DNA of 64,000 bases from assembly GCA_009379915.1 (NCBI GenBank), contig WHSV01000008.1, forward strand, positions 1 through 64,000, written 5' to 3'. The stretch is from Actinomycetota bacterium (lineage in GTDB: Bacteria > Actinomycetota > CADDZG01 > WHSQ01). The notes below the pieces were generated by a model. That model did no database searches and was not told the DNA's origin. It worked only from the letters and a program-made list of their open reading frames with translations. Every line of letters begins with the position of its first letter. Within the stretch, counting starts at the first letter, position 1. The position numbers and the translations under genes were made by a program. Below are positions 115-14,050 of this stretch, in pieces.

Positions 115-187
115 GCCCTCGTAGCTCAGGGGATAGAGCATCGGTTTCCTAAACCGTGTGTCGCAGGTTCGAATCCTGCCGGGGGCA
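115..187 (+). tRNA. tRNA-Arg (anticodon CCU)
   Basis: A complete cloverleaf can be drawn. The 7-bp acceptor stem pairs GCCCTCG (115-121) with CGGGGGC (180-186), with discriminator A at 187. A D arm follows, then an anticodon stem 141-145/153-157 enclosing the loop TTCCTAA with CCT at 148-150, and a T arm containing GGTTCGAATCC. CCA is not encoded. CCU reads the rare AGG arginine codon. The gene is also the insertion target of the neighbouring element: the recombinase frame on the opposite strand ends inside it at position 126, so the tRNA 3' half is the expected attachment site and has stayed functional. Confidence 0.96.
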
Positions 188-1910
188 CGGACAAAAGGGG
201 TGCGCGGCCCCCATCAGGGTGCGTCAGTTCGGGAACCAACGTCACCCTGATGGTCAGCTCGCGTTTCGTGGGGTTGTATCTCGCTTCAAAGTTGAGCGCC
301 GCGAGCACGTCGCGGAAGTCCTGATCGCTCACGAGCTCCCAATCCACGTCCAGAAGCGGCAGAGCGGCCACGAGGGCCTCTGCCGACTCCGGATCGGGAA
401 CTTGTTCCATCTCCTTCTCGGCGGTCTCCAGAGCCCGTTGCTTCTTCGCCCTCAAGGTCCCAAGCTCCTCTAGCCGGGCCCGGATGTCGTCTGCGATCTC
501 GTTGTCCGGCTCCTGAGCCTCCAGGTTTGTCACGAGCCTGCGGATTCGCTTCTTGATGCCGTCCAGCTCGGTCCCCAACCGGTCGACCTCGTCGTGAGCG
601 TTGTCCGCTTCCGGTCCGATCTCAGCAAGGCTCCGCTTCAACGCCTCAATACGGTCCGGCCCGAACAGGTGCGTGGCAAGGAACTCGACGACCTTCTCTC
701 CCGCCTTGTCCTCCCGGAGGTAGACCATGCGCGGATGGTCCTCGGGGACGAGCCCCGAGTGCCGGCGATTGATCTCGCACGTGTAGTACGCGGTGTTCCG
801 GCCTCGACGGATCTTGCCGTGCATACGCAGGCCGCATATCCCGCATCTAAGGAACGACCGCAGCACATAGATGTGCTTGCGGTAATCCTCGTGGCCTTCT
901 GCTGCCTTGGTCACGTTGTCGCGCTTTATGGCCGCAGCGTTGGCGCGGTCGAACATCTCGCGTGACACGAGCGGTTCGTGCGCGGGCTCCTCCGACCAGA
1001 TCCACTTCTCCGGAGGATTGATCTTGCCCCCGCGCCTTCGCTGCCGTCGGTTCCATACCTGATAACCGGTGTACTTGGGGTTGTGCAGGATCTCCCACAC
1101 CGACGACCGGCCCCACATGCCCGTCCGTCTCTTCGGATCGGGAGACTGCGGAGGCGGATAGCGCTCCAGATCGCTATTCAGTTTTCTCTGTAGCTCTGTG
1201 ATCGTGAGGCCCCTGATGACGTAGTCGTGAAAGATCGTCTTCACTACCGATGCCGTCATCGGATCGGGCTCCAAGACCTTGATCCTCAATCCCTGCTGAG
1301 CCTTGTGCGGGTTCGGGTGCTCCTGCTCCGCGAACCGATATCCATACAGAGGCTTTCCGCCCGCGTGCCGCCCCTGCTTGGCCGCGGTCTCGATCCCCTG
1401 GCGCGACTTGACCTTCAATTCGTGCAAGTAGCCGCGGGCAAGGCCGACGTTGACATGGCGCAGGACGATCGAGCCAAAAGATTCCTCGAACGGCTCGTCG
1501 ATCGCCCACAGCCGCACGCCTTCATCCGCGAGTTGCTCCTCGACACGAAACGTCACCGACGGGTTGCGTGACAGCCGATTGATCGACTCGCACACGACCG
1601 CGTCGAATTGACCGGAGGAGGCTTCTTCGATCAGATCGACGAGGCCTCCGTCTCTCGGTATCGGGATGTCGAAGCCGACCAGACCCTTGCCTGAGCCGCG
1701 CGCGTCGAGGCGCATCGCGCCCGACTCGACGTCGTAGAAGTGCGCCACGATGCGCCCTCCCGTTTCGGCCACGGCGCGCTCGCAGTTGGCAAGCTGGCGC
1801 GGCAACGAAAGCGTCGGGTCCTGATTGTCCTCGGTCGAGACGCGTCCATAGAACGCGAACCGCATGCGCGCGTCCGCGACCTTCTCTCCGTATGTCGTTT
1901 GTGCTTTCAT
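126..1910 (-). CDS. Large serine recombinase (site-specific integrase)
   Basis: 594 aa. It should catalyse integration and excision of the island through a phosphoserine link. The resolvase-type catalytic domain is at about 17-165, with the nucleophile at Ser25 in FYGRVSTED. A Recombinase domain follows at about 190-310, then a zinc ribbon (LRCGICGLRMHG) near 355-385 and a charged coiled coil at about 420-500. This order is typical of large serine recombinases. The ATG at 1908-1910 has an AGGAGG site 7 nt upstream and overlaps the preceding small ORF by 4 nt. Roughly the last 20 residues (including PPAGFEPATHGLGNRCS) are the antisense of the tRNA, so the integrated C-terminus is target-encoded. 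Family call is firm; attachment sites are inferred. Confidence 0.93.
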   Translation of the reverse strand: MKAQTTYGEKVADARMRFAFYGRVSTEDNQDPTLSLPRQLANCERAVAETGGRIVAHFYDVESGAMRLDARGSGKGLVGFDIPIPRDGGLVDLIEEASSGQFDAVVCESINRLSRNPSVTFRVEEQLADEGVRLWAIDEPFEESFGSIVLRHVNVGLARGYLHELKVKSRQGIETAAKQGRHAGGKPLYGYRFAEQEHPNPHKAQQGLRIKVLEPDPMTASVVKTIFHDYVIRGLTITELQRKLNSDLERYPPPQSPDPKRRTGMWGRSSVWEILHNPKYTGYQVWNRRQRRRGGKINPPEKWIWSEEPAHEPLVSREMFDRANAAAIKRDNVTKAAEGHEDYRKHIYVLRSFLRCGICGLRMHGKIRRGRNTAYYTCEINRRHSGLVPEDHPRMVYLREDKAGEKVVEFLATHLFGPDRIEALKRSLAEIGPEADNAHDEVDRLGTELDGIKKRIRRLVTNLEAQEPDNEIADDIRARLEELGTLRAKKQRALETAEKEMEQVPDPESAEALVAALPLLDVDWELVSDQDFRDVLAALNFEARYNPTKRELTIRVTLVPELTHPDGGRAPLLSVPPAGFEPATHGLGNRCSIP

Positions 1911-2127: not shown

Positions 2128-3135
2128 TCAGGCGACCACCCCCTCATCGGGTGGTTCCTCCTCATCGCCTGGTGGCTCTCCGATCGGAAAGCGCGGCCGA
2201 AGCGATAGCGGCATGAGCCGTGCCCACCGCTGTGCTCCGTCCTCTGTGAAGCAACGTCCGATGCAGTCCGATAGGTCATAGTCCATTCCCTCCTTTGCCG
2301 GCAGTTCCACAATCGTCAGACGTCGGTCGAGCTTGGGCAGCAGCCCCCACGCCCGGCCGAGCACGCCGCGCTGACTCAACATCTCCTCGTTGGCAACGTA
2401 GAAGGACAGGCTCGCGAGCCTGTCTGCGCGCTTGAAGCGCGCGACCGCCTCGGCGAACGCCGCCGCCACAACCCGCTCCCGTCTGTGATTCGGGACCACG
2501 ATCAGGACGCAGGGAAAGTGCTCGGCGCCTTGTTCGGTCCAATCCCTTGCTACCCCGATGTAGCCCGCGAGCTTGTTCGCGAGCTGTCTCGTCGTCTCGG
2601 TGCCGCGGTCGTACTCGAGATAGAAGTCGAGCGCGCCGCCCGGGTGCAGGTAGACCCCATACCCGTCGGGACGGATCCAGCCCTCGGCGGTCCTGACCGT
2701 GCGCTCCGGCACCCACTTGGCAAGTCCGTGGCCGTCGATCGCGCGTCCGGCCTCGATCAGCGTGCAGAAGAACTCGTTGGCCCCGATGCGGTGCGCGAGC
2801 CACGCATCCTGTTCGCGGTCCTCCTCGTCTCTGACCACGTAGCGGAGCTCGGAGCGCGCGACGCCAAGGAGCGATGCCACAACCTGGGCGCCGCTCTCGG
2901 TCAGCGTGTGATGTCCGGATGCCTTCCCCATCCCTCGCGGTCGGGGCGGGTACCAGGTGTCGATGAGTCCGCGCTGCGCGAGATGCCGCAGCCGGTCCTG
3001 GGCGCGCCGAAGCGACCCGAAGAACATCGCCTTCAGGTGTTGGGTGAGCAAGACCTTGTGCTCGTATATGACGGACAGGACGGCGCGCTCGCGCGCGTCA
3101 AGCCCGCGGATGAGGTCCCGAGGATCAAGAGTCAT
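2128..3135 (-). CDS. Replication-relaxation family protein
   Basis: 335 aa from the ATG at 3133-3135, chosen because AGGAGG lies 6 nt upstream. The N-terminal region (MTLDPRDLIRGLDARERAVL, then LTQHLKAMFF, RRAQDRLRHLAQRGL) is a winged-helix typical of the Replic_Relax family (PF13814) found on actinobacterial plasmids and integrative elements. The middle carries the family's nuclease-fold-like core, with an EYDRGTETTRQLANKLAGY segment. These proteins are thought to act in mobilisation or replication of the element. Here the gene heads the small-ORF/recombinase operon. No FtsK/TraB translocase or primase accompanies it in the window, so the element is either reduced or relies on other elements for transfer. 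Confidence 0.85.
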   Translation of the reverse strand: MTLDPRDLIRGLDARERAVLSVIYEHKVLLTQHLKAMFFGSLRRAQDRLRHLAQRGLIDTWYPPRPRGMGKASGHHTLTESGAQVVASLLGVARSELRYVVRDEEDREQDAWLAHRIGANEFFCTLIEAGRAIDGHGLAKWVPERTVRTAEGWIRPDGYGVYLHPGGALDFYLEYDRGTETTRQLANKLAGYIGVARDWTEQGAEHFPCVLIVVPNHRRERVVAAAFAEAVARFKRADRLASLSFYVANEEMLSQRGVLGRAWGLLPKLDRRLTIVELPAKEGMDYDLSDCIGRCFTEDGAQRWARLMPLSLRPRFPIGEPPGDEEEPPDEGVVA

Positions 3136-3271
3136 GGCCGACCTCCTGGTGCCTCGGTCCCTGATCTTGGGCACACTTCTTCCCGACGGCCTCGACCGCC
3201 TCTCTCCGGGCGCGCGACACCCGAGCGGTCACCACCGTCCTTCCGCGTGCGAATGCAACTGCTAACTGCAA
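3125..3271 (-). CDS. Possible 48-aa leader ORF upstream of the replication-relaxation gene
   Basis: The TTG start at 3269-3271 lies 6 nt after a perfect AGGAGG (3278-3283), and the frame runs to a TGA that overlaps the replication-relaxation start by 11 nt. The product is basic (VAFARGRTVVTARVSRARRE) and not recognised. A competing frame from GTG 3275 ends exactly on that start codon (ATGA overlap) but sits only 2 nt from the Shine-Dalgarno. One of the two may be real and couple translation of the next gene. The ribosome site is the only firm evidence. Confidence 0.3.
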   Translation of the reverse strand: MQLAVAFARGRTVVTARVSRARREAVEAVGKKCAQDQGPRHQEVGHDS

Positions 3272-4018: not shown

Positions 4019-4047
4019 GGAGCAAATTTCTTCGATGTAATTTACGA
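4019..4047. repeat. Left copy of a 29-bp imperfect direct repeat flanking the five-gene module
   Basis: It matches the copy at 8678-8706 at 25 of 29 positions in the same orientation. Shared cores are GGAG, AAATTTC and GATGTAATTTA. It lies 31 bp beyond the stop of the module's last gene. The AT-rich core is partly dyad-symmetric (AAATT...AATTT), as recombination or protein-binding sites often are. It differs from the tRNA sequence, so it is not the recombinase attachment site within the tRNA. Confidence 0.75.
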
Positions 4048-4077
4048 AACCGAGCGTCGACCCTTTCCTAACGACAG

Positions 4078-4623
4078 TTAGCGCGGCTGGGGCGGTCTCG
4101 CGCCGAAGCCGATGCGCCTGCGTTCGACCCGTTTCGACCTTGGACTCGGAACCCATCCAAAGAGGGACCATGTTTCCGTGATGACGCGTGGCCCCTCCGG
4201 ACCACCAGCATCGACAACCCGAGTCTTGATGAGCCTCCTGCCGCGGTAGGTGTCTTCGATCTCATAGTCCCCGCGTAAGATTCCAGCGACCGCGTCTACG
4301 GCCTGGGTAGTCCAAGGTCGTCCTTGCCCTCCCGCCTCCCACTCGGTGATGTGTTCGTGGGCTGTAAGCCAAGCGACGATGGCCTCATCTTCAGATAGCC
4401 CGATTTCGATCGCGGCCCCCGGCTCCGAGGAATGAACCAACCGAACCTCGATCGTGTTGTCCTTCGTCCTGGCGTGACCACGATCTCTAATCGAACTCCG
4501 GGATCGATCCAGAAGAGGCGGCTGATACGTCTCAAGCATCGTGAGAAGCTCATCGAGAAACGCTGATTGAGTTTGCGTGGGCTCCTCGAACTCCACGGTG
4601 CCGAACCAATCGCCTAGTGCCAC
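4078..4623 (-). CDS. Unknown protein, last gene of the HARE/GHKL module
   Basis: 181 aa, GTG start at 4621-4623, only 3 nt after the stop of the preceding small gene, so expression is probably coupled. The N-terminus (MALGDWFGTVEFEEPTQTQS) leads into a mixed alpha/beta region (IEVRLVHSSEPGAAIEIGLS, DEAIVAWLTAHEHITEW) and a basic, arginine-rich tail. No signal peptide or membrane segment, so cytoplasmic. I recognise no family. Being last in a tightly packed module suggests an accessory or effector role. Its stop overlaps a short hairpin (CTAAC-GACA-GTTAG, about 4068-4081) that could weakly terminate transcription. Confidence 0.7.
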   Translation of the reverse strand: MALGDWFGTVEFEEPTQTQSAFLDELLTMLETYQPPLLDRSRSSIRDRGHARTKDNTIEVRLVHSSEPGAAIEIGLSEDEAIVAWLTAHEHITEWEAGGQGRPWTTQAVDAVAGILRGDYEIEDTYRGRRLIKTRVVDAGGPEGPRVITETWSLFGWVPSPRSKRVERRRIGFGARPPQPR

Positions 4624-4626
4624 GAC

Positions 4627-4907
4627 CTACTCGCCCACGAACGAGCCATCTGGAGTAATGATGAAATCCAATGTGAGTGGCGCGAATGCTCTCCATCCCC
4701 CATCATCGATACTCACCATTACCCGCAGGTCCCCATCCCTTGGGCTGTCCCAAAAGACTTGGACCTCCAGCTGGTACGTGGTTCCCGAAGGCCCCGAAGC
4801 TCGTATGTCTCTTCTCGACCCAAACGTTCCCGAAGCTCCTCGTACGAGAGCTTCCGTAAGCGCGCTATTTGCTCCGCCATGAGACTCCGGGCCTCGGCTT
4901 TATCCAT
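4627..4907 (-). pseudogene. Short conserved-type protein with a single-base frameshift
   Basis: From ATG 4905-4907 the frame gives MDKAEARSLMAEQIARLRK...EETYELRG. The other frame then continues PSGTTYQLEVQVFWDSPRDG, then DLRVMVSIDDGGWRAFAPLT and DFIITPDGSFVGE, stopping at 4627. Together they make a coherent protein of about 93 aa; one G is missing from a short run (CCCC at 4792-4795 on the plus strand). The joined sequence resembles a widespread small hypothetical family that I recall ending in '..DDFIxxPDGSFVGE'. Either a sequencing deletion or a genuine lesion. It lies between the second winged-helix gene and the 181-aa gene. Confidence 0.72.
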
Positions 4908-4966
4908 CTGCTATCGAGCTGTTCTCACCTTGCCGCGAAAAGGCCACTTTCGTCCTTTCCACACCA

Positions 4967-4980
4967 AGGTGCAGGCACCT
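4967..4980. promoter_or_regulatory. Short dyad in the only gap inside the module
   Basis: AGGTGC-AG-GCACCT is a perfect 6+6 inverted repeat within the 111-bp gap between the second winged-helix gene and the frameshifted small gene. This is the only sizeable gap in an otherwise overlapping operon. It could be an operator or an RNA hairpin modulating the two distal genes; nothing distinguishes these. Confidence 0.35.
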
Positions 4981-5018
4981 GAATCACCTTTGAGATCCGA
5001 CGTAGTCCAAGGAGTGCG

Positions 5019-5696
5019 TTACGACGCATACGCGTTCAACAGACGAAGATCCTCGGCGAATCTGGACTTGAGGGTTTCCTGAAACTCCTGAGCGCGAGCT
5101 AAGTCTTCGCGGTCGAAAGCCACGCGACCGCGACCATCGGACAGCTCCTGAAGATCTCGAGCATCAAGTTCTGCTATGGCTGCCCTAATCACGTGATCGA
5201 CGCGTTCGACGCGTTCACGGATAACTCTAGGGGGCGTCCCGGGCGCAACCCCCCAAAAGTGGCCAGCTTCCCGGAAACTCTTGGGTCTTCCTTGATCCTG
5301 TAACCAACTGCGGAAGACTTCATGATCGAGGATTGCCCGCACGCTTTCTCCGAGGCTTCTATCAACCTTTTCTCTGGCGCCCGCATCTTCAGGAGTTAGC
5401 GTCGACGCTCTCTGAAGTCCCTTTACGGTTAGCCGATAGACGCGGGCTCGAACCTTGGTGAGTAAGCCCTGATCGACGAGACCTTTCTGTCCCTTCCCCC
5501 TACTGTCAAGTTCGCGATGCAGACGTTCCGAGTCAGGATGCTCGGCTTCAAAGCCGCGTAGACCGAATGCGGCTGAATCCAACCGCCACGCCGCGACCGC
5601 AAGCTCTTCCATGGTGAAGGTCTTATCGAGATCTCCACCCGAACACTCAAGCGCGGCCAGCAAAATCTTCGCCTTGAGATCGCCTGCGGTGGCCAT
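5019..5696 (-). CDS. Winged-helix protein of the HARE/GHKL module
   Basis: 225 aa from ATG 5694-5696, whose A overlaps the TGA of the upstream ATPase gene (TGATG), implying translational coupling. Residues 1-100 look like a winged helix: a first helix LKAKILLAALECS, a TMEELAVAAWRL helix, and a wing-like GLLTKVRARVYRLTVKGLQR. A distinctive FGLRGFEAEHPDSERLHREL segment sits in the middle. The C-terminal half is helical, with a FWGVAPGTPPRVIRERVERV segment and a charged end. The spacing of these motifs looks like a conserved family, but I cannot name it. Probably DNA-binding; possibly the specificity or adaptor partner of the ATPase. Confidence 0.75.
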   Translation of the reverse strand: MATAGDLKAKILLAALECSGGDLDKTFTMEELAVAAWRLDSAAFGLRGFEAEHPDSERLHRELDSRGKGQKGLVDQGLLTKVRARVYRLTVKGLQRASTLTPEDAGAREKVDRSLGESVRAILDHEVFRSWLQDQGRPKSFREAGHFWGVAPGTPPRVIRERVERVDHVIRAAIAELDARDLQELSDGRGRVAFDREDLARAQEFQETLKSRFAEDLRLLNAYAS

Positions 5697-8017
5697 CAAC
5701 CTGCCTCAAGCTTTCCGCCTTCGACGTACGCACGAAGCTTCGTCCACATGTTCTGGATAGTCTGCACTCTGCGGTTCTCAAGAGCGATCCGATGCGACGC
5801 CCATAGATCCGGGGGTTCGTTCTCTCCTCGCCGAGTGAACTCTTCATCCATCCACACGAGCTCGACCATCTCCATCAACCGTTCTATGTGGAACAGGCGC
5901 CAGAGGCGAGGAGTCTCTGAGCTTTGCTTGAAGGCGTAGGCAGCCGCGGGACTCTGAAGGTTCAACCAGAAAATGTTGTTTACGTAGTCGACCGTCTCTT
6001 GCCACAGCGCGGGCGCATCAGGATTTCCCTCCCGAACGCGTCCGGTCGCCGGATCGACATCTCGATCGGTCAGCTTCAGCTCGGGAAAGCCACCACCCCG
6101 CTTTTCCTTGTCCTTCGACGGAAGGATTGTCACCTCGACCGGGCGACGAGCCCAGAGACCATCAGCGCCTGCAAAGACGTCAGTCCGGCCCTCTTTGTTC
6201 CCGGTGACCCAGCCCACGGATCCGATTCGGACGAGGGCTTGATCCGCGGCGTCGTGGCGCCAGTCAAGGAGGACATCGGTCGACCTATCGCCGTCGTCGT
6301 CCGTTACCTCGGCTGTGATCAAAGCCTTCTTCCCGACCTCAACAGATAGCTCCCGCGGGGCCAAGAAGACGTGCTCGACCAGCCACACGCGAACGGGAAC
6401 GTGCTCAGATTCGAGTGCCGTCCCTTTGACTCGGACCCAGACGTCGCACTTGCCTTTGCCGACTGGTTTCAGCCACTCTCCGTCGACGCTTCCGACCTTC
6501 GGATCGCTGCTGAACCACTCAAGCCTGGGAGAAGGAATCCGATTCCCGTCGCCGTCCAGCACACTCACGCCGAGCTGATAAGCAAGATTGAGGTCAACCC
6601 CGCGTCCGACGTGTAGGCCTCCGTCCGGAACTGCGTATTCGAGTTCTGAGGGAAACCCTGCCTTTGGCTTCTCCGTGCGCTTCCGACGTTTCTTGGAGAG
6701 GTCGTCGCCCCCTTCGCCACTTCCGCTTCCACCCTGCGCTGAGGGAAGGAAGTTGTTCTTGAAGGCGTCCAACTTGCGATTCTCTTCATGGACCTGGTCC
6801 AAAGAACGTTCATCCAGCTCTTGGCGCCGTAGGTCGTTGATGCGCTTGGCGATCTGCGCGATCTTCTCGGCGGCAAACGCGTCGACAGCTTCTACGAGCG
6901 GGCCGTCCTTCGGGCGCTTTCTTCCGGTCTCGACATACCCAGGATCGAGAGCTGGCAGCTCGACGATCCCGTAGACGAACTGCGCTCCACTATTTCCAGG
7001 GGCGAACTCGGCAATGCTCTTCGAGCCGATTGGTTGTTTGCCGGCGCGGTAATTCATGCGCCATCGGGGACGAAGAAGTTTGTATGCCCAATGCATGTTG
7101 TCCCTGGACGTGAATAGCGTGAGACGTCCAGCGTCCTTCTTTCCCCCCTCGTTAGTGGATATGAGCTGATCGTTGGATAGTGGTAGTTCCTCGGGGATTA
7201 CGTGGACCTCGGGCTTCTCGAGGCTTGGGTACGGAGGAATCTCCGGGAGTTGCAGATGCTTACCGCCGTTCATCGACTTGCCATTGTGGATGGCATAGAT
7301 CTCAACCTGCTCGATCACCATTGCGGTCTGATCGTGGCGCAGAAGCTTCCATACGAGGTCGTCGGCGGGGATGCGCTGTTTATACATCTCTGTCGGCGCC
7401 ACGCCCTCGACGAGGGTGAAGGCCTCGCGAGCAACGATGGCATCGCGAACCACGGTCGGAAGATCGTTGAGATCAATCCCATAGGGCTCCAGCGCCGCGT
7501 TGAGCTCTGCCGTAGTCGATGAGATAGATACCTCTCGCCCCTCAGCTTCGTTGGGAATCCAACCCGGGGTTCCACGATCCTCCGATCCCGGCGGGCCCTC
7601 GAATCCTTTGCAGTTACGCTTGCGGTCGTTAACGCCGAGAAACCGACACTGATCGTCGAACATTGCGAATAGGTAAGCCTTCCCACCCTGCCCTTGCGTT
7701 TGTTCCTCATCCAAGCCAGAGCTGCGGTGCGACGCGCTGGGGTCATGCCACACGCTCCAAGCTTCAACGTCATCGATCATCGCCCCGCCCACATCGAGCA
7801 CGGCGATTCGGCCTGCAGACGTGTCGTTGCCGTCCTGGAATAGCAGGACAGAAGCTCTCTGCTCGACGGCGACGTCAAGGCGATCCGTTTGGTACGCACG
7901 ACGGACGTTCTTCAGTAGTTCCGCAAGTCCATCGTCGTGACCGCTAATCCAACGCGTCGCGGCGCGGAGTGTTCCTTCGTTGTGCCATTGGATCGGTTGG
8001 GTTCTCTCAATCGTCAC
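5696..8017 (-). CDS. GHKL/MORC-like ATPase with two Ig-like (BIG2-type) domains
   Basis: 773 aa. GTG start 8015-8017 chosen because AGGAGG lies 5 nt upstream; a longer frame has no ribosome site. Residues 15-130 carry a degenerate GHKL ATP-binding signature: N-box LAELLKN, G1-like VLDVGGAM, G2-like GQGGKAYLFAMF. A transducer-like region follows (VELPALDPGY, RKRPKDGPLVEA). After a Ser/Gly/Lys linker (about 430-460) come two beta-rich Ig-like units at about 480-660, the first with the BIG2 hallmark SSDPKVGSVDGEWLKPVGKG. A helical tail (NPDAPALWQETVDYVNNIFW) ends the protein. No signal peptide or membrane segment, so the Ig-like units are cytoplasmic. MORC/MutL-type GHKL ATPases occur in restriction-like systems; the defence role is inference. 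Confidence 0.8.
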   Translation of the reverse strand: MTIERTQPIQWHNEGTLRAATRWISGHDDGLAELLKNVRRAYQTDRLDVAVEQRASVLLFQDGNDTSAGRIAVLDVGGAMIDDVEAWSVWHDPSASHRSSGLDEEQTQGQGGKAYLFAMFDDQCRFLGVNDRKRNCKGFEGPPGSEDRGTPGWIPNEAEGREVSISSTTAELNAALEPYGIDLNDLPTVVRDAIVAREAFTLVEGVAPTEMYKQRIPADDLVWKLLRHDQTAMVIEQVEIYAIHNGKSMNGGKHLQLPEIPPYPSLEKPEVHVIPEELPLSNDQLISTNEGGKKDAGRLTLFTSRDNMHWAYKLLRPRWRMNYRAGKQPIGSKSIAEFAPGNSGAQFVYGIVELPALDPGYVETGRKRPKDGPLVEAVDAFAAEKIAQIAKRINDLRRQELDERSLDQVHEENRKLDAFKNNFLPSAQGGSGSGEGGDDLSKKRRKRTEKPKAGFPSELEYAVPDGGLHVGRGVDLNLAYQLGVSVLDGDGNRIPSPRLEWFSSDPKVGSVDGEWLKPVGKGKCDVWVRVKGTALESEHVPVRVWLVEHVFLAPRELSVEVGKKALITAEVTDDDGDRSTDVLLDWRHDAADQALVRIGSVGWVTGNKEGRTDVFAGADGLWARRPVEVTILPSKDKEKRGGGFPELKLTDRDVDPATGRVREGNPDAPALWQETVDYVNNIFWLNLQSPAAAYAFKQSSETPRLWRLFHIERLMEMVELVWMDEEFTRRGENEPPDLWASHRIALENRRVQTIQNMWTKLRAYVEGGKLEAG

Positions 8018-8027
8018 TGTCAGCCTC

Positions 8028-8555
8028 CTACGCTTCTCGAACGCGTTTCTTGATCCGTCGCCGCGGTCCATCGTCTCCGGCGGTCGATCGCAGTCCCCAG
8101 GACGCAAGCCCGTACACGCCACGACTCGGCCGTACGAAGCGCGGGTCCCGGCGCATGTGGGCGATCACGTTCGCCTGATCACCGCGACCCGGCAGCGCGG
8201 CGTTCTGCTGCTCCAATAGCCTCATGATCTCGGAGATGTGCAGCGGATGGCCCTCCGCCTCGAGGAGTCGAGCCACCTCATCGACGACTGGATGACGGGA
8301 CCGAGGAAGAGGCGTCCCCTCAGCCGACTTCGCGATGGTCAGGGTCAGTACCGCATCCTCGTCTTCGGGAGGTTCATTGCCTAGGGTAAGAAGCTGTTTG
8401 ATGAGCCGGGCTTCCTGCTCCGCGCGCGCGAGCCTGGTTCGATACGTTGCGATAAACCGCTCTCGCGCTTGGAGAGCAGCCTGAAGGACCTCCGGCGCCA
8501 AGGTCTGGGAGAGATCGTCGCCGTCCTCGGGAAACCAGTCCTCGCGGTCACTCAT
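8028..8555 (-). CDS. HARE-HTH-like winged-helix protein, first gene of the module
   Basis: 175 aa from ATG 8553-8555; an in-frame ATG at 8576 would add 7 residues but lies inside the dyad upstream. Residues 30-70 form a coiled coil (ARERFIATYRTRLARAEQEA). Residues 95-165 match the HARE-HTH pattern: HPVVDEVARLLEAEGHPLHI, then SEIMRLLEQ, GDQANVIAHMRRDPRFVRPS and GVYGLASWG. HARE-HTH domains occur in restriction enzymes and chromatin-type proteins and are proposed to sense modified DNA. The tail is basic (RRRIKKRVRE). The stop is 10 nt before the ATPase start and the two overlap at the ribosome site. Likely the DNA-recognition or regulatory component of the module. Confidence 0.8.
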   Translation of the reverse strand: MSDREDWFPEDGDDLSQTLAPEVLQAALQARERFIATYRTRLARAEQEARLIKQLLTLGNEPPEDEDAVLTLTIAKSAEGTPLPRSRHPVVDEVARLLEAEGHPLHISEIMRLLEQQNAALPGRGDQANVIAHMRRDPRFVRPSRGVYGLASWGLRSTAGDDGPRRRIKKRVREA

Positions 8556-8566
8556 AGTGTAGGAAC

Positions 8567-8587
8567 AGTACACCATGTAGGTGTACT
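8567..8587. promoter_or_regulatory. Perfect 8+8 bp dyad upstream of the module (candidate operator)
   Basis: AGTACACC (8567-8574), spacer ATGTA, GGTGTACT (8580-8587). It lies 12 bp upstream of the preferred start of the first gene. A consensus-like TTGACT reads in the gene's direction at 8618-8613, but no good -10 at standard spacing is evident. A dyad this symmetric between promoter and start suggests autorepression, plausibly by one of the two winged-helix proteins encoded in the module. Confidence 0.6.
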
Positions 8588-8677
8588 ACACAACTGTAGC
8601 AATCCCATGCAAAGTCAAGGTGCTGATCAGCTCGCACTGGTCGGGCCGTCGTAGGCGGAGTCGCCCTTGCGTGGAGG

Positions 8678-8706
8678 GGAGTAAATTTCGTTGATGTAAT
8701 TTATGA
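8678..8706. repeat. Right copy of the 29-bp imperfect direct repeat
   Basis: Same orientation as 4019-4047, 25/29 identical, 4,659 bp apart. The core TAAATT-N10-AATTTA is dyad-symmetric. It sits in the 410-bp gap between the divergent module and the ECF sigma gene, so the pair encloses exactly the five module genes. The rest of this gap (8707-8965) shows no gene; it holds a purine-rich stretch and probably the sigma operon promoter. Confidence 0.75.
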
Positions 8707-9457: not shown

Positions 9458-10496
9458 CTTTGAAGCTCGTCTACGCAACAGTCTGAGACACAATCTCGAT
9501 CCAATCGACGCGACATCTCACCTTCCGGATGATGTAGCAAGCAAAGCTCGCGCCCGACGCTTCATCATGGTCGCGGGGGCGGGAATGGCGGCGATCCTAT
9601 TAGCAGCATCGACCGTCTGGACCGCCTCCATACTGACGTCAAGTCCATCGCAATTACCTGCAGCACCTGCGCCGAAGAGCCCTGAAACGAGTGAGGAGGA
9701 GATTGCCTTCGTGGCGGACTCGGACCTCTTCCGCATAGCAGTCGCTGGAGGATCCCGACGGCGAATCACCTCTGGCCCGGCGTTCGACAGACAACCAGAT
9801 TGGTCGCCCGACCGGCGGCGACTGATCTTCATTCGCAGCGACTCACCCATCGATCCCGGGCATGTCATGGTCGTCAACCGGGACGGCACCAGGTTGGATC
9901 AGTTGACGACCGGGGAAGCATCCTTCTGGGATGCCCGTTGGTCGCCCGATGGGCAACAGATTGCTGTAACGAAGACCGATGCCGGCGGCGCTCGGGTCTA
10001 TGTCATGAAAGCGGACGGGTCGGGCCTCAGACGCCTGGTTGAAATTGAGTCAGCTTGGCCAAGCTGGTCCCCGGATGGGCGCCTCATCGCGTTCGGGGGG
10101 AGTGCAACCGGAGGGGAGCCCGATGGCATTTATCTAGTGGATGTTCGAACGGGCGAGACCAGCCTTCTTGTCTCCGCTCCCGAAACCCTGAATCAAACTC
10201 CCGCGTGGTCTCCGGATGGGAAGCACATCGCCTTCATTCGGATCAAGCTCGATACCGGAGGACAGCAGACGACCACAATCGGGAGTGATCTCTTCGTGGT
10301 CGATGCCGACGGAACGAATGCTCGGGCTCTCGCCAACACGAGTGGTGGGTCCGTCGATTCTCCAACCTGGTCTCCCGACGGCCAGCAAGTCCTCTTCGCC
10401 CCCAGCGGAACGCTGCTCACGGTGGATGCGAACGGAGGACCTACTAATCAGTTTGGTGATCCGCCAATTCGGGGTTCCAATCCGGATTGGAGCTGA
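9450..10496 (+). CDS. Membrane-anchored PD40 (TolB-type) beta-propeller, likely partner of the ECF sigma factor
   Basis: 348 aa, GTG start with GGAGG 6 nt upstream, overlapping the sigma gene. About 38 cytoplasmic residues (LRNSLRHNLDPIDATSHLPD) precede one membrane helix at 39-62 (FIMVAGAGMAAILLAASTVW). The outside part contains five PD40 repeats with the WSPDG-type motif (PDWSPDRRRLIF, ARWSPDGQQIAV, PSWSPDGRLIAF, PAWSPDGKHIAF, PTWSPDGQQVLF). The layout (small cytosolic head, one helix, external sensor, immediately after a sigma gene) is that of an anti-sigma factor, but no canonical anti-sigma zinc motif is visible. What the propeller senses is unknown. Confidence 0.85.
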   Translation: MNDFEARLRNSLRHNLDPIDATSHLPDDVASKARARRFIMVAGAGMAAILLAASTVWTASILTSSPSQLPAAPAPKSPETSEEEIAFVADSDLFRIAVAGGSRRRITSGPAFDRQPDWSPDRRRLIFIRSDSPIDPGHVMVVNRDGTRLDQLTTGEASFWDARWSPDGQQIAVTKTDAGGARVYVMKADGSGLRRLVEIESAWPSWSPDGRLIAFGGSATGGEPDGIYLVDVRTGETSLLVSAPETLNQTPAWSPDGKHIAFIRIKLDTGGQQTTTIGSDLFVVDADGTNARALANTSGGSVDSPTWSPDGQQVLFAPSGTLLTVDANGGPTNQFGDPPIRGSNPDWS

Positions 10497-12433: not shown

Positions 12434-13231
12434 ATGCAGAGCGGATCAACCGGTCCGTCCGATCTCATCCAGAGCGTCTCGCGTGCCTTCCGCGTGCTCG
12501 AAGAGGTGGGAAGCGCACCCGATGGCCTCAATGCCAAGCAGGTGGCGCGTCGCTGCGGCCTCTCGCTGTCGACCACCTACCACCTCGTCAGGACTCTTTG
12601 CTACGAGGGCTACCTCTCCCGTCGCCCTCAGGGCGTTTACCTCCTCGGATACGAGATCGCCGGCCGCTTCCGGGACCTCGTGCAAACCCTTCGGCAGCCG
12701 CCCCAGGTTCGCGCCGTTCTCTCTCACCTGGCTCTGGCGACGGGCCACAGCATCTATTACAGCCGCATGATGGGCGGACGTGTCGTGATCACCGAGGTCG
12801 TGGAGGCTCCCCGATCGCCTCACCTGGAGGACCTGGTGGTGGGCTTCTCCGAGGCAGCGCACGCGACCGCGCTCGGCAAGGCGCTACTCTCGACAATGCC
12901 ACCAGACCAACGGAGTGCCTACCTTCGCGAACAAGGGGTCCGGGCCTGGACCCCTCGGACGGTGACCGGTATAGATGAGCTCGACGCCGAGCTCAGGATC
13001 GCGGCCGGCATCCAACTCTTCGTCGAGGAAGGTCAGTTCAGGAACGAGGTTTCGTGTGCGGCCGTGTTGGTCCGCGATCCCGCTGGTACCGGCTCGATGG
13101 GCGCAATAGCGTTCTCGGCCAGCTCGTCACGCTTTCTCGCGCTCCGCGATCGTCTGGCGCGCGAGCTGCGACTTGCGGCGACAGATCTCGGGAAGCTGGA
13201 GGCAGACAGCGCGCCGGCGCGATCTTGCTGA
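12434..13231 (+). CDS. IclR-family transcriptional regulator
   Basis: 265 aa, ATG start. The N-terminal winged helix (SVSRAFRVLEEVGSAPDGLN, AKQVARRCGLSLSTTYHLVR, YLSRRPQGVYLLGYEIA) is followed by an IclR effector domain at about 85-250 (HLALATGHSIYYSRMMGG, HATALGKALLS, ELRIAAGIQLFVEEGQF, CAAVLVRDPAG). These proteins dimerise and respond to small carboxylic or aromatic effectors. It is divergent from the DUF59-amidohydrolase operon and faces the broken alcohol dehydrogenase, so it likely controlled both. Confidence 0.93.
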   Translation: MQSGSTGPSDLIQSVSRAFRVLEEVGSAPDGLNAKQVARRCGLSLSTTYHLVRTLCYEGYLSRRPQGVYLLGYEIAGRFRDLVQTLRQPPQVRAVLSHLALATGHSIYYSRMMGGRVVITEVVEAPRSPHLEDLVVGFSEAAHATALGKALLSTMPPDQRSAYLREQGVRAWTPRTVTGIDELDAELRIAAGIQLFVEEGQFRNEVSCAAVLVRDPAGTGSMGAIAFSASSSRFLALRDRLARELRLAATDLGKLEADSAPARSC

Positions 13232-13367
13232 GCGCTAATGAGACTTCGCTCGATCCTTCTTCTGCGTTTGGCTCGGACCTCTCGCGGACATCGCCAAAGC
13301 AACGCATCGAGTGGCGCGGGCCGGCATGGCCGACCGACATCTTTGCGGAAGGTGGACGGGCTTACAG

Positions 13368-14050
13368 CTACGGGACCAGGATCCACCGCCCCGCCAGCTC
13401 GCCTGAGCTCAGGTCGTCGATCGCCTGGTTTATGTTCTCGAGCGAGTAGACCTGCGTGTGGCCCCCTTTCCTTCGGATCCATAACTCGCTCGACCAGTCC
13501 GTCACCGGCCTCGATCACGTGATCCGCCCCCGTCTGCTCGGCGAGCTTTCGCGCCTCCTCCGAGATGTCGGCCGCGATGATCTCGGCCGCGCCCAGCGCT
13601 CAGGACCTGGATGCCGATGTGCCCGAGGCCTCCGACCCCGATGACTACGCATTTGGGCCGGGGGCAGGCTTGCGGCGGCCTTCCGGGCGGCCCGACACGG
13701 GGTGATGCCCGCGTCGGCGAGGGCGGCGACGTCCTTGGGCTCGAGGCTCTCTTCGAGCTTGACGAGAGTTCGCTCGCTCGTGCTCAGGTACTCGGCGAAA
13801 CCGCCCTCGGAGTCAAGCCTGGGGAAGGGACACGTGTGGCAGTACATGTCCTCACCCCTCCGGCATGCTAAGCACACGCTGCAGCTCCGCTTTGGGTAAA
13901 CGATGACGGGGTCGCCAGGCTTGACCGTCGTAACCGATGAGCCGACCTCCTCGACCCATCCCGAGTTTTTCGTGACCGAGCGTGTAGGGAAGCCGCAGGT
14001 CGGGGAACGTGTCCTTCGAGATCCCCTCGATGATGTGAAGATCGGTACGG
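13368..14050 (-). pseudogene. Decayed zinc-dependent alcohol dehydrogenase
   Basis: Read in the minus direction, fragments of one MDR-type ADH follow each other in shifting frames: RTDLHIIEG, PDLRLPYTLGHE, then (after an extra A in an A-run) GWVEEVGSSVTTVKPGDPVI, the structural-zinc segment CSVCLACRRGEDMYC, GGFAEYLSTSERTLVKLE, CVVIGVGGLGHIGIQVLSA, then (shift) EIIAADISEEARKLAEQTGA and VIEAGDGLVERVMD. After an internal loss of perhaps 60-75 residues, HTQVYSLENINQAIDDL runs to the stop at 13368. The N-terminal 35 or so residues are missing at 14050, where an unrelated sigma-factor fragment begins. Frameshifts plus a deletion and truncation mean a true pseudogene. Confidence 0.88.

Follow-up and report, generated by a model that had tools for sequence, protein, structure and literature searches.

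In the window, by which we mean the whole stretch of 64,000 nucleotides that was analysed, five consecutive ORFs lie on the minus strand at 4078–8576, within the interval 4019–8706, which confirms the overlapping minus-strand operon described in the initial annotation. In the direction of transcription, they encode a 182-aa protein that consists of a coiled coil and a C-terminal HARE-HTH (8028–8576; 175 aa if translation starts at the ATG at 8555), a 773-aa GHKL-like ATPase which has two Ig-like units of the Big_2 type and whose C-terminus is helical (5696–8017), a 225-aa winged-helix protein (5019–5696), a small gene that looks frameshifted (4627–4907, judged from a three-frame translation) and a 181-aa protein with no family match (4078–4623). 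This operon is borne out, but only two or three of its genes, not five, make up the module: the core is formed by the ATPase and the winged-helix gene, and the HARE-HTH gene is their upstream partner.

The five ORFs are bracketed by an imperfect 26-bp direct repeat on the minus strand (8678–8703 and 4019–4044). The bracketing repeat that had been noted from the start is borne out, since its copies are identical at 23 of the 26 positions, are the only two in the 3.39-Mb genome and have no equivalent in shuffled sequence. Outside the 26 bp, there is no evident similarity between their surroundings. On the minus strand, the repeat also encodes similar short peptides (VNYIEEICS and INYINEIYS), and for that reason it may be either a site of recombination or a piece of coding sequence that was duplicated. 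The GC content between the repeats (58.8%) is below that of the whole window (63.6%), but the drop relative to the flanks, which had been called visible, is modest, the right flank being at 60.2%.

To the left of the module lie a large serine recombinase gene (126–1910, minus strand; PF07508, PF00239 and PF13408), which overlaps a tRNA-Arg (115–188), and the gene of a Replic_Relax (replication-relaxation) protein of a presumed mobile element (2128–3174, minus strand; PF13814, E = 1.3e-32). This combination is typical of an integrated element. The tRNA-integrated island proposed initially has these three components, but a second copy of the tRNA end (the attachment site), which was looked for within the window, was not found; integration at tRNA-Arg is for this reason plausible, and not more.

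The HARE-HTH domain occupies residues 103–160 of the 182-aa protein (PF05066, E = 1.5e-5, model positions 9–71 of 71), in agreement with the HARE-HTH-like winged helix that had been recognised by eye; its score of 25.7 bits is 0.2 bits under the curated cutoff of 25.9. An inverted repeat, GTACAC-N7-GTGTAC, at 8568–8586, spans the earliest start codon available to the gene, and may be an operator. When plasmids were searched with the HARE-HTH protein, only a sigma-factor gene was returned.

The stop of the HARE-HTH gene overlaps the Shine-Dalgarno sequence of the ATPase gene, which probably starts at the GTG at 8017, behind AGGAGG and ten bases past that stop; this start gives the 773 aa that had been announced. 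The ATPase has the motifs E33/N37 (N-box), D75xxG78 and G109xGGK113, whose columns are invariant in the six members of the family. Motif II has the variant form D-x-x-G; the N-box aspartate, kept in the other members, is an arginine in the window protein. The three blocks have the order and spacing of GHKL proteins and are the invariant core of a family that is otherwise 21–32% identical; on the strength of these motifs, the ATPase is likely to belong to the GHKL superfamily. The GHKL-like assignment of the initial annotation stands as far as the motifs are concerned, but profile searches of Pfam and the PDB gave no match to a GHKL family or structure for any of the six ATPases, and the AF2 model of the window protein has a pLDDT of 40. 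The Ig-like units, on the other hand, are supported by Big_2 (E = 0.013 in the window ATPase, 3.7e-6 in the relative P0026) and by the bacterial Ig-like PDB chains that the ATPase profile matched.

The start codon of the second core gene (ATG at 5696) lies inside the stop of the ATPase gene (TGATG), which suggests that the two genes are translationally coupled. The AF2 model of its product (225–226 aa), built from a four-sequence alignment, has a pLDDT of 82, and the top Foldseek matches are the winged helices of MukF/MukE, of PadR-family proteins, of ORC and of FOXN1 (forkhead), with probabilities up to 0.91, yet none with E < 0.01. The protein looks like a winged-helix protein, as had been proposed. 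We also note that on a viral contig (L025:7704–8246) the same winged-helix domain, with 55% identity to P0015 over 77 aa, is fused to a zinc-ribbon-like N-terminus; no ATPase was found on this contig.

The last two ORFs are of a different kind. The 62-aa ORF at 4719–4907 goes on in another frame to about 4627 (as ...SGTTYQLEVQVFWDSPRDGDLRVMVSIDDGGWRAFAPLTLDFIITPDGSFVGE, followed by a stop), and this continued frame ends just before the 181-aa gene. The unbroken gene would encode about 93 aa, one base being short in a run of G; the frameshift may reflect genuine decay, or else a fault in the assembly, which comprises 158 contigs. A gap of 111 bp separates the winged-helix gene from the two ORFs, which are found beside none of the ATPases of the relatives described below. 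For the 181-aa protein, neither Pfam, PADLOC and NCBIfam nor 100 related genomes gave a match. These two ORFs are probably not part of the module. The initial annotation had put forward a five-gene set, whose effector could be hidden in the 181-aa or in the second winged-helix protein; as a whole, this set was seen in none of the relatives, which share the two-gene core but not the last two ORFs, and no nuclease was recognised in either of the two proteins.

The window ATPase alone, used as a query, retrieved nothing from genome contigs, viral contigs or phages; its only match in 297 genomes of the phylum (L002) was rejected as an Ig-domain artefact. Among plasmids, it had one match, on pCTYH.Ch1_3 of Ensifer adhaerens (22.7% identity over 84%, E = 1e-20), and the gene that follows this ATPase is a homologue of the second core gene of the window (27%, E = 2e-19). 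Further relatives were reached via this match and alignments built from that pair: two IMG/VR contigs that are nearly identical and bear phage tail genes (prophages), a third viral contig which ends inside the ATPase gene, a Phycisphaerales MAG and the planctomycete genome G605 (E = 9e-101). Matches in four other genomes (G370, G681, G325 and G271) covered no more than the Ig-like or linker region and were discarded.

The ATPases of the relatives are 21–32% identical to that of the window and form two branches. The first consists of the window and G605 proteins (31.5% identical), and viral contigs scanned with this branch yielded nothing; the others make up the second branch, and are 42–49% identical to one another (the near-identical prophages aside) and 21–23% identical to the window protein. 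In every complete locus (the Ensifer conjugative plasmid, the prophages, the MAG and G605), the ATPase gene is immediately followed by the winged-helix gene, so that the recurrence in other genomes, which the initial annotation had suggested looking for, is observed for this pair, whose carriers are a conjugative plasmid, prophages and two planctomycetes. Wherever the context is clear, the copies are carried by mobile DNA or have recombinases or tRNAs nearby. Our impression, from 1,343 whole genomes and pattern-based scans, is that the pair is rare, with about five independent loci known. At the G605 locus (L035), a gene pair encoding a nucleotidyltransferase (MNT) and a HEPN protein lies immediately downstream of the module (13034–13772), and an N-terminal scrap of another GHKL-like protein (ALVREVIQNSLDAM) is found just upstream of the ATPase (9606–9881).

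The slot upstream of the ATPase gene is variable. It is occupied by the HARE-HTH gene in the window, by a winged-helix-like gene in planctomycetes, and by the gene of a small protein with a GNLSN motif in Ensifer and on three viral contigs. The gene of the Phycisphaerales MAG encodes a 209-aa winged-helix-like protein (P0021), a 48-aa relict of which precedes the ATPase of G605 (42% identity, E = 2e-11), and part of the C-terminal half of the 209-aa protein aligns weakly with the HARE-HTH of the window (E = 0.007 in a single comparison). The Ensifer protein is small and helical (75 aa).

Proteins of 65–90 aa with a GNLSN or GNLAN motif, most of them with an FKL-like tail, precede several unlike operons; members lie at L003:9644–9871 and at about 4974–5219 of L004, L005, L006, L007, L008 and L009. 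On plasmids, the family also precedes the PADLOC candidate PDC-M33A, and a HATPase_c_3 protein that adjoins GajA (Gabija); Dcm, Vsr, restriction or Shedu genes are found near these plasmid operons. The family appears to be a partner common to several GHKL-type defence candidates, and its context is the strongest contextual link of the module to defence.

A PF01555 DNA methyltransferase is found nearby in three lineages, and these enzymes are 48–50% identical among themselves. In the prophages and the Phycisphaerales MAG, the methyltransferase gene and the winged-helix gene are transcribed towards each other; on the Ensifer plasmid, the methyltransferase gene lies about 4 kb upstream of the pair. 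The Ensifer locus has, between the methyltransferase and the ATPase module, a McrBC-like pair made of an AAA_5 protein and a possible PD-(D/E)XK protein (L003:5830–8813), and because these genes separate the methyltransferase from the pair, it may belong to them. No PF01555 methyltransferase was found near the window module (the two weak matches in this genome are on other contigs) or at the G605 locus, and neither the window module nor the intervals between conserved genes in the relatives yielded an SFII helicase or an endonuclease, the McrBC-like genes occurring only in Ensifer. The window module is best read as a divergent subtype without methyltransferase.

We propose, with as much doubt as conviction, that the module is a mobile, restriction-like, MORC-like DNA-surveillance system that has probably not been described before. 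The GHKL-Ig ATPase and the winged-helix protein coupled to it would be its core, and the gene in front of them an exchangeable partner. The HARE-HTH protein and the 225-aa protein would bind DNA, perhaps in a modification-sensitive manner, and, once bound, these winged-helix proteins would load the dimeric GHKL ATPase, which ATP would close as a clamp in the fashion of MORC or MutL. The Ig-like and helical regions would bridge to DNA or to partners, and the invading DNA would then be compacted, blocked, or passed to a nuclease encoded elsewhere. In relatives that bear the methyltransferase, host methylation would mark self, while the window subtype may instead read a modification on foreign DNA via its HARE-HTH. 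We infer ATP clamping, modification sensing and the anti-invader function by analogy with the MORC/paraMORC proteins of restriction-modification systems (PMC2292703), with the GHKL-Shedu protein VcSduA (PMC12137116) and with HARE-HTH as a reader of modification (PMC10853773).

We favour this explanation because the two core genes are neighbours in all complete relatives, the methyltransferase lies near the module in three lineages, the GNLSN protein also precedes the PDC-M33A and HATPase_c_3/GajA operons, the copies with clear context lie in mobile DNA or have recombinases or tRNAs as neighbours, and the residues of the GHKL motifs do not vary among six members. It is also favoured by the literature, in which HARE-HTH is regarded as a reader of modified DNA (PMC10853773) and GHKL proteins recur in restriction-modification systems (PMC2292703). 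It is weakened by the fact that neither profiles nor the PDB nor structure prediction support a GHKL fold, that the module has no nuclease or helicase, that the window–G605 branch has no methyltransferase and the Ensifer one perhaps belongs to the McrBC-like genes, and that only about five independent loci are known. The scheme of two winged helices and a GHKL clamp, already present in the initial annotation, is favoured by the L017 locus, in which the upstream gene also looks winged-helix-like; structure prediction did not confirm the GHKL fold. If confirmed, this would be a GHKL-based surveillance system absent from the defence catalogue that was searched, with a defined minimal gene pair, and one could ask directly if the GHKL-Ig proteins of bacteria capture invading DNA or compact it.

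In eukaryotes, the trapping or compaction of DNA is attributed to MORC proteins, and SMCHD1 is a eukaryotic silencing protein that contains a GHKL ATPase and Ig-like domains and has a DNA-binding role. It may be, though we consider it rather unlikely, that the module excludes DNA without any nuclease: the GHKL-Ig clamp, loaded by winged-helix readers of modification, would silence or compact foreign DNA, a prokaryotic equivalent of the silencing by MORC and SMCHD1, with one subtype that has the methyltransferase and a methyltransferase-free subtype that has the HARE-HTH.

Another possible, if unlikely, explanation is that the module serves the maintenance or silencing of the element that carries it, the GHKL-Ig protein and its winged-helix partners organising or segregating the DNA of the element or repressing its genes, without exclusion of invaders. 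This would fit the presence of copies on a plasmid, in prophages and in a recombinase-bearing island, the fact that the best Foldseek matches of the winged-helix protein, though weak, are MukF and MukE of the chromosome condensin, and the phage that bears the same winged-helix domain without ATPase. However, the carrier elements are unrelated in type, a methyltransferase of the restriction-modification type is linked to the module in three lineages, and the small upstream protein is common to candidate defence operons that lie beside restriction-modification and Shedu genes.

It appears improbable that the module is a transcriptional control unit, in which the HARE-HTH and winged-helix proteins would be regulators and the ATPase a kinase-like or chaperone-like switch. 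The PadR-family regulators among the Foldseek matches (winged helix and helical C-terminus) and the inverted repeat that overlaps the start of the HARE-HTH gene point in this direction, but there is no conserved target operon besides the methyltransferase, and neither a phosphoacceptor domain nor a receiver was detected. Quite improbable, too, is the hypothesis that the ATPase belongs to a different Ig-containing family and that its motifs are coincidental. The failure of the Pfam, PDB and AF2 analyses to return a GHKL match argues for it, as do the insignificant hhalign comparisons of the ATPase with the HATPase_c_3 protein (P0013) and with PDC-M33A. Against it stand the three blocks in GHKL order and spacing, which form the invariant core of so divergent a family, and the best path to the HATPase_c_3 protein, although insignificant, pairs the same blocks and is above the shuffled controls. 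Last, the cooperation of all five ORFs with a hidden effector, which their common strand and their position between the two repeats would suggest, is very improbable considering that the last two ORFs are beside none of the relatives, that the 181-aa protein is unmatched in 100 related genomes, that the small ORF looks frameshifted and that 111 bp precede these two.

We return to the surveillance system that we favour, and to its place among known systems. PADLOC gave no match for the window proteins or for any of the six ATPases, NCBIfam gave none for the window proteins, and no paper describing the gene set was found in the open-licence PMC literature, subscription papers and preprints being outside the scope of this search; the initial impression that the set is not a named system is in line with these results. 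The module cannot be filed as a MORC-type restriction-modification system, as PDC-M33 or as Shedu, because a defining feature of each is absent.

VcSduA, of Shedu type I-D/paraMORC3 (PMC12137116), resembles the module in that a GHKL ATPase is proposed to control anti-DNA defence, but it has a DUF4263 PD-(D/E)XK nuclease domain, and none was found in the module with Pfam and PADLOC. The HARE-HTH of restriction and Dnd-associated proteins (PMC10853773; Aravind and Iyer 2012, cited there) is, as may be the case here, a probable reader of modified DNA; that of the window is not fused to a nuclease but stands alone, with a coiled coil, beside the ATPase. The PADLOC candidate PDC-M33 (M33A, M33B and the DUF6339 protein M33C) also has a large protein with GHKL-like motifs after a GNLSN protein, in restriction-modification and Shedu neighbourhoods; however, M33B and DUF6339 are absent here, the ATPases do not align significantly, and the window has no GNLSN protein. 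With SMCHD1, the module shares the combination of GHKL and Ig-like domains, a likeness of architecture for which we do not claim homology, and no SMC hinge was detected in the ATPase of the module. The MORC and paraMORC1–5 proteins of restriction-modification systems (Iyer, Abhiman and Aravind 2008, PMC2292703) differ from the module, which has no SFII helicase, Vsr or RE-fold nuclease, has Ig-like domains and a coupled winged-helix gene, and gives no profile match. They have in common with it a large GHKL-like ATPase, a sporadic occurrence in mobile operons and DNA-binding partners, and a DNA methyltransferase is linked in three of the lineages related to the module, though neither at the window module nor in G605; our best reading, by analogy, is that the module would work most like a MORC/paraMORC module.
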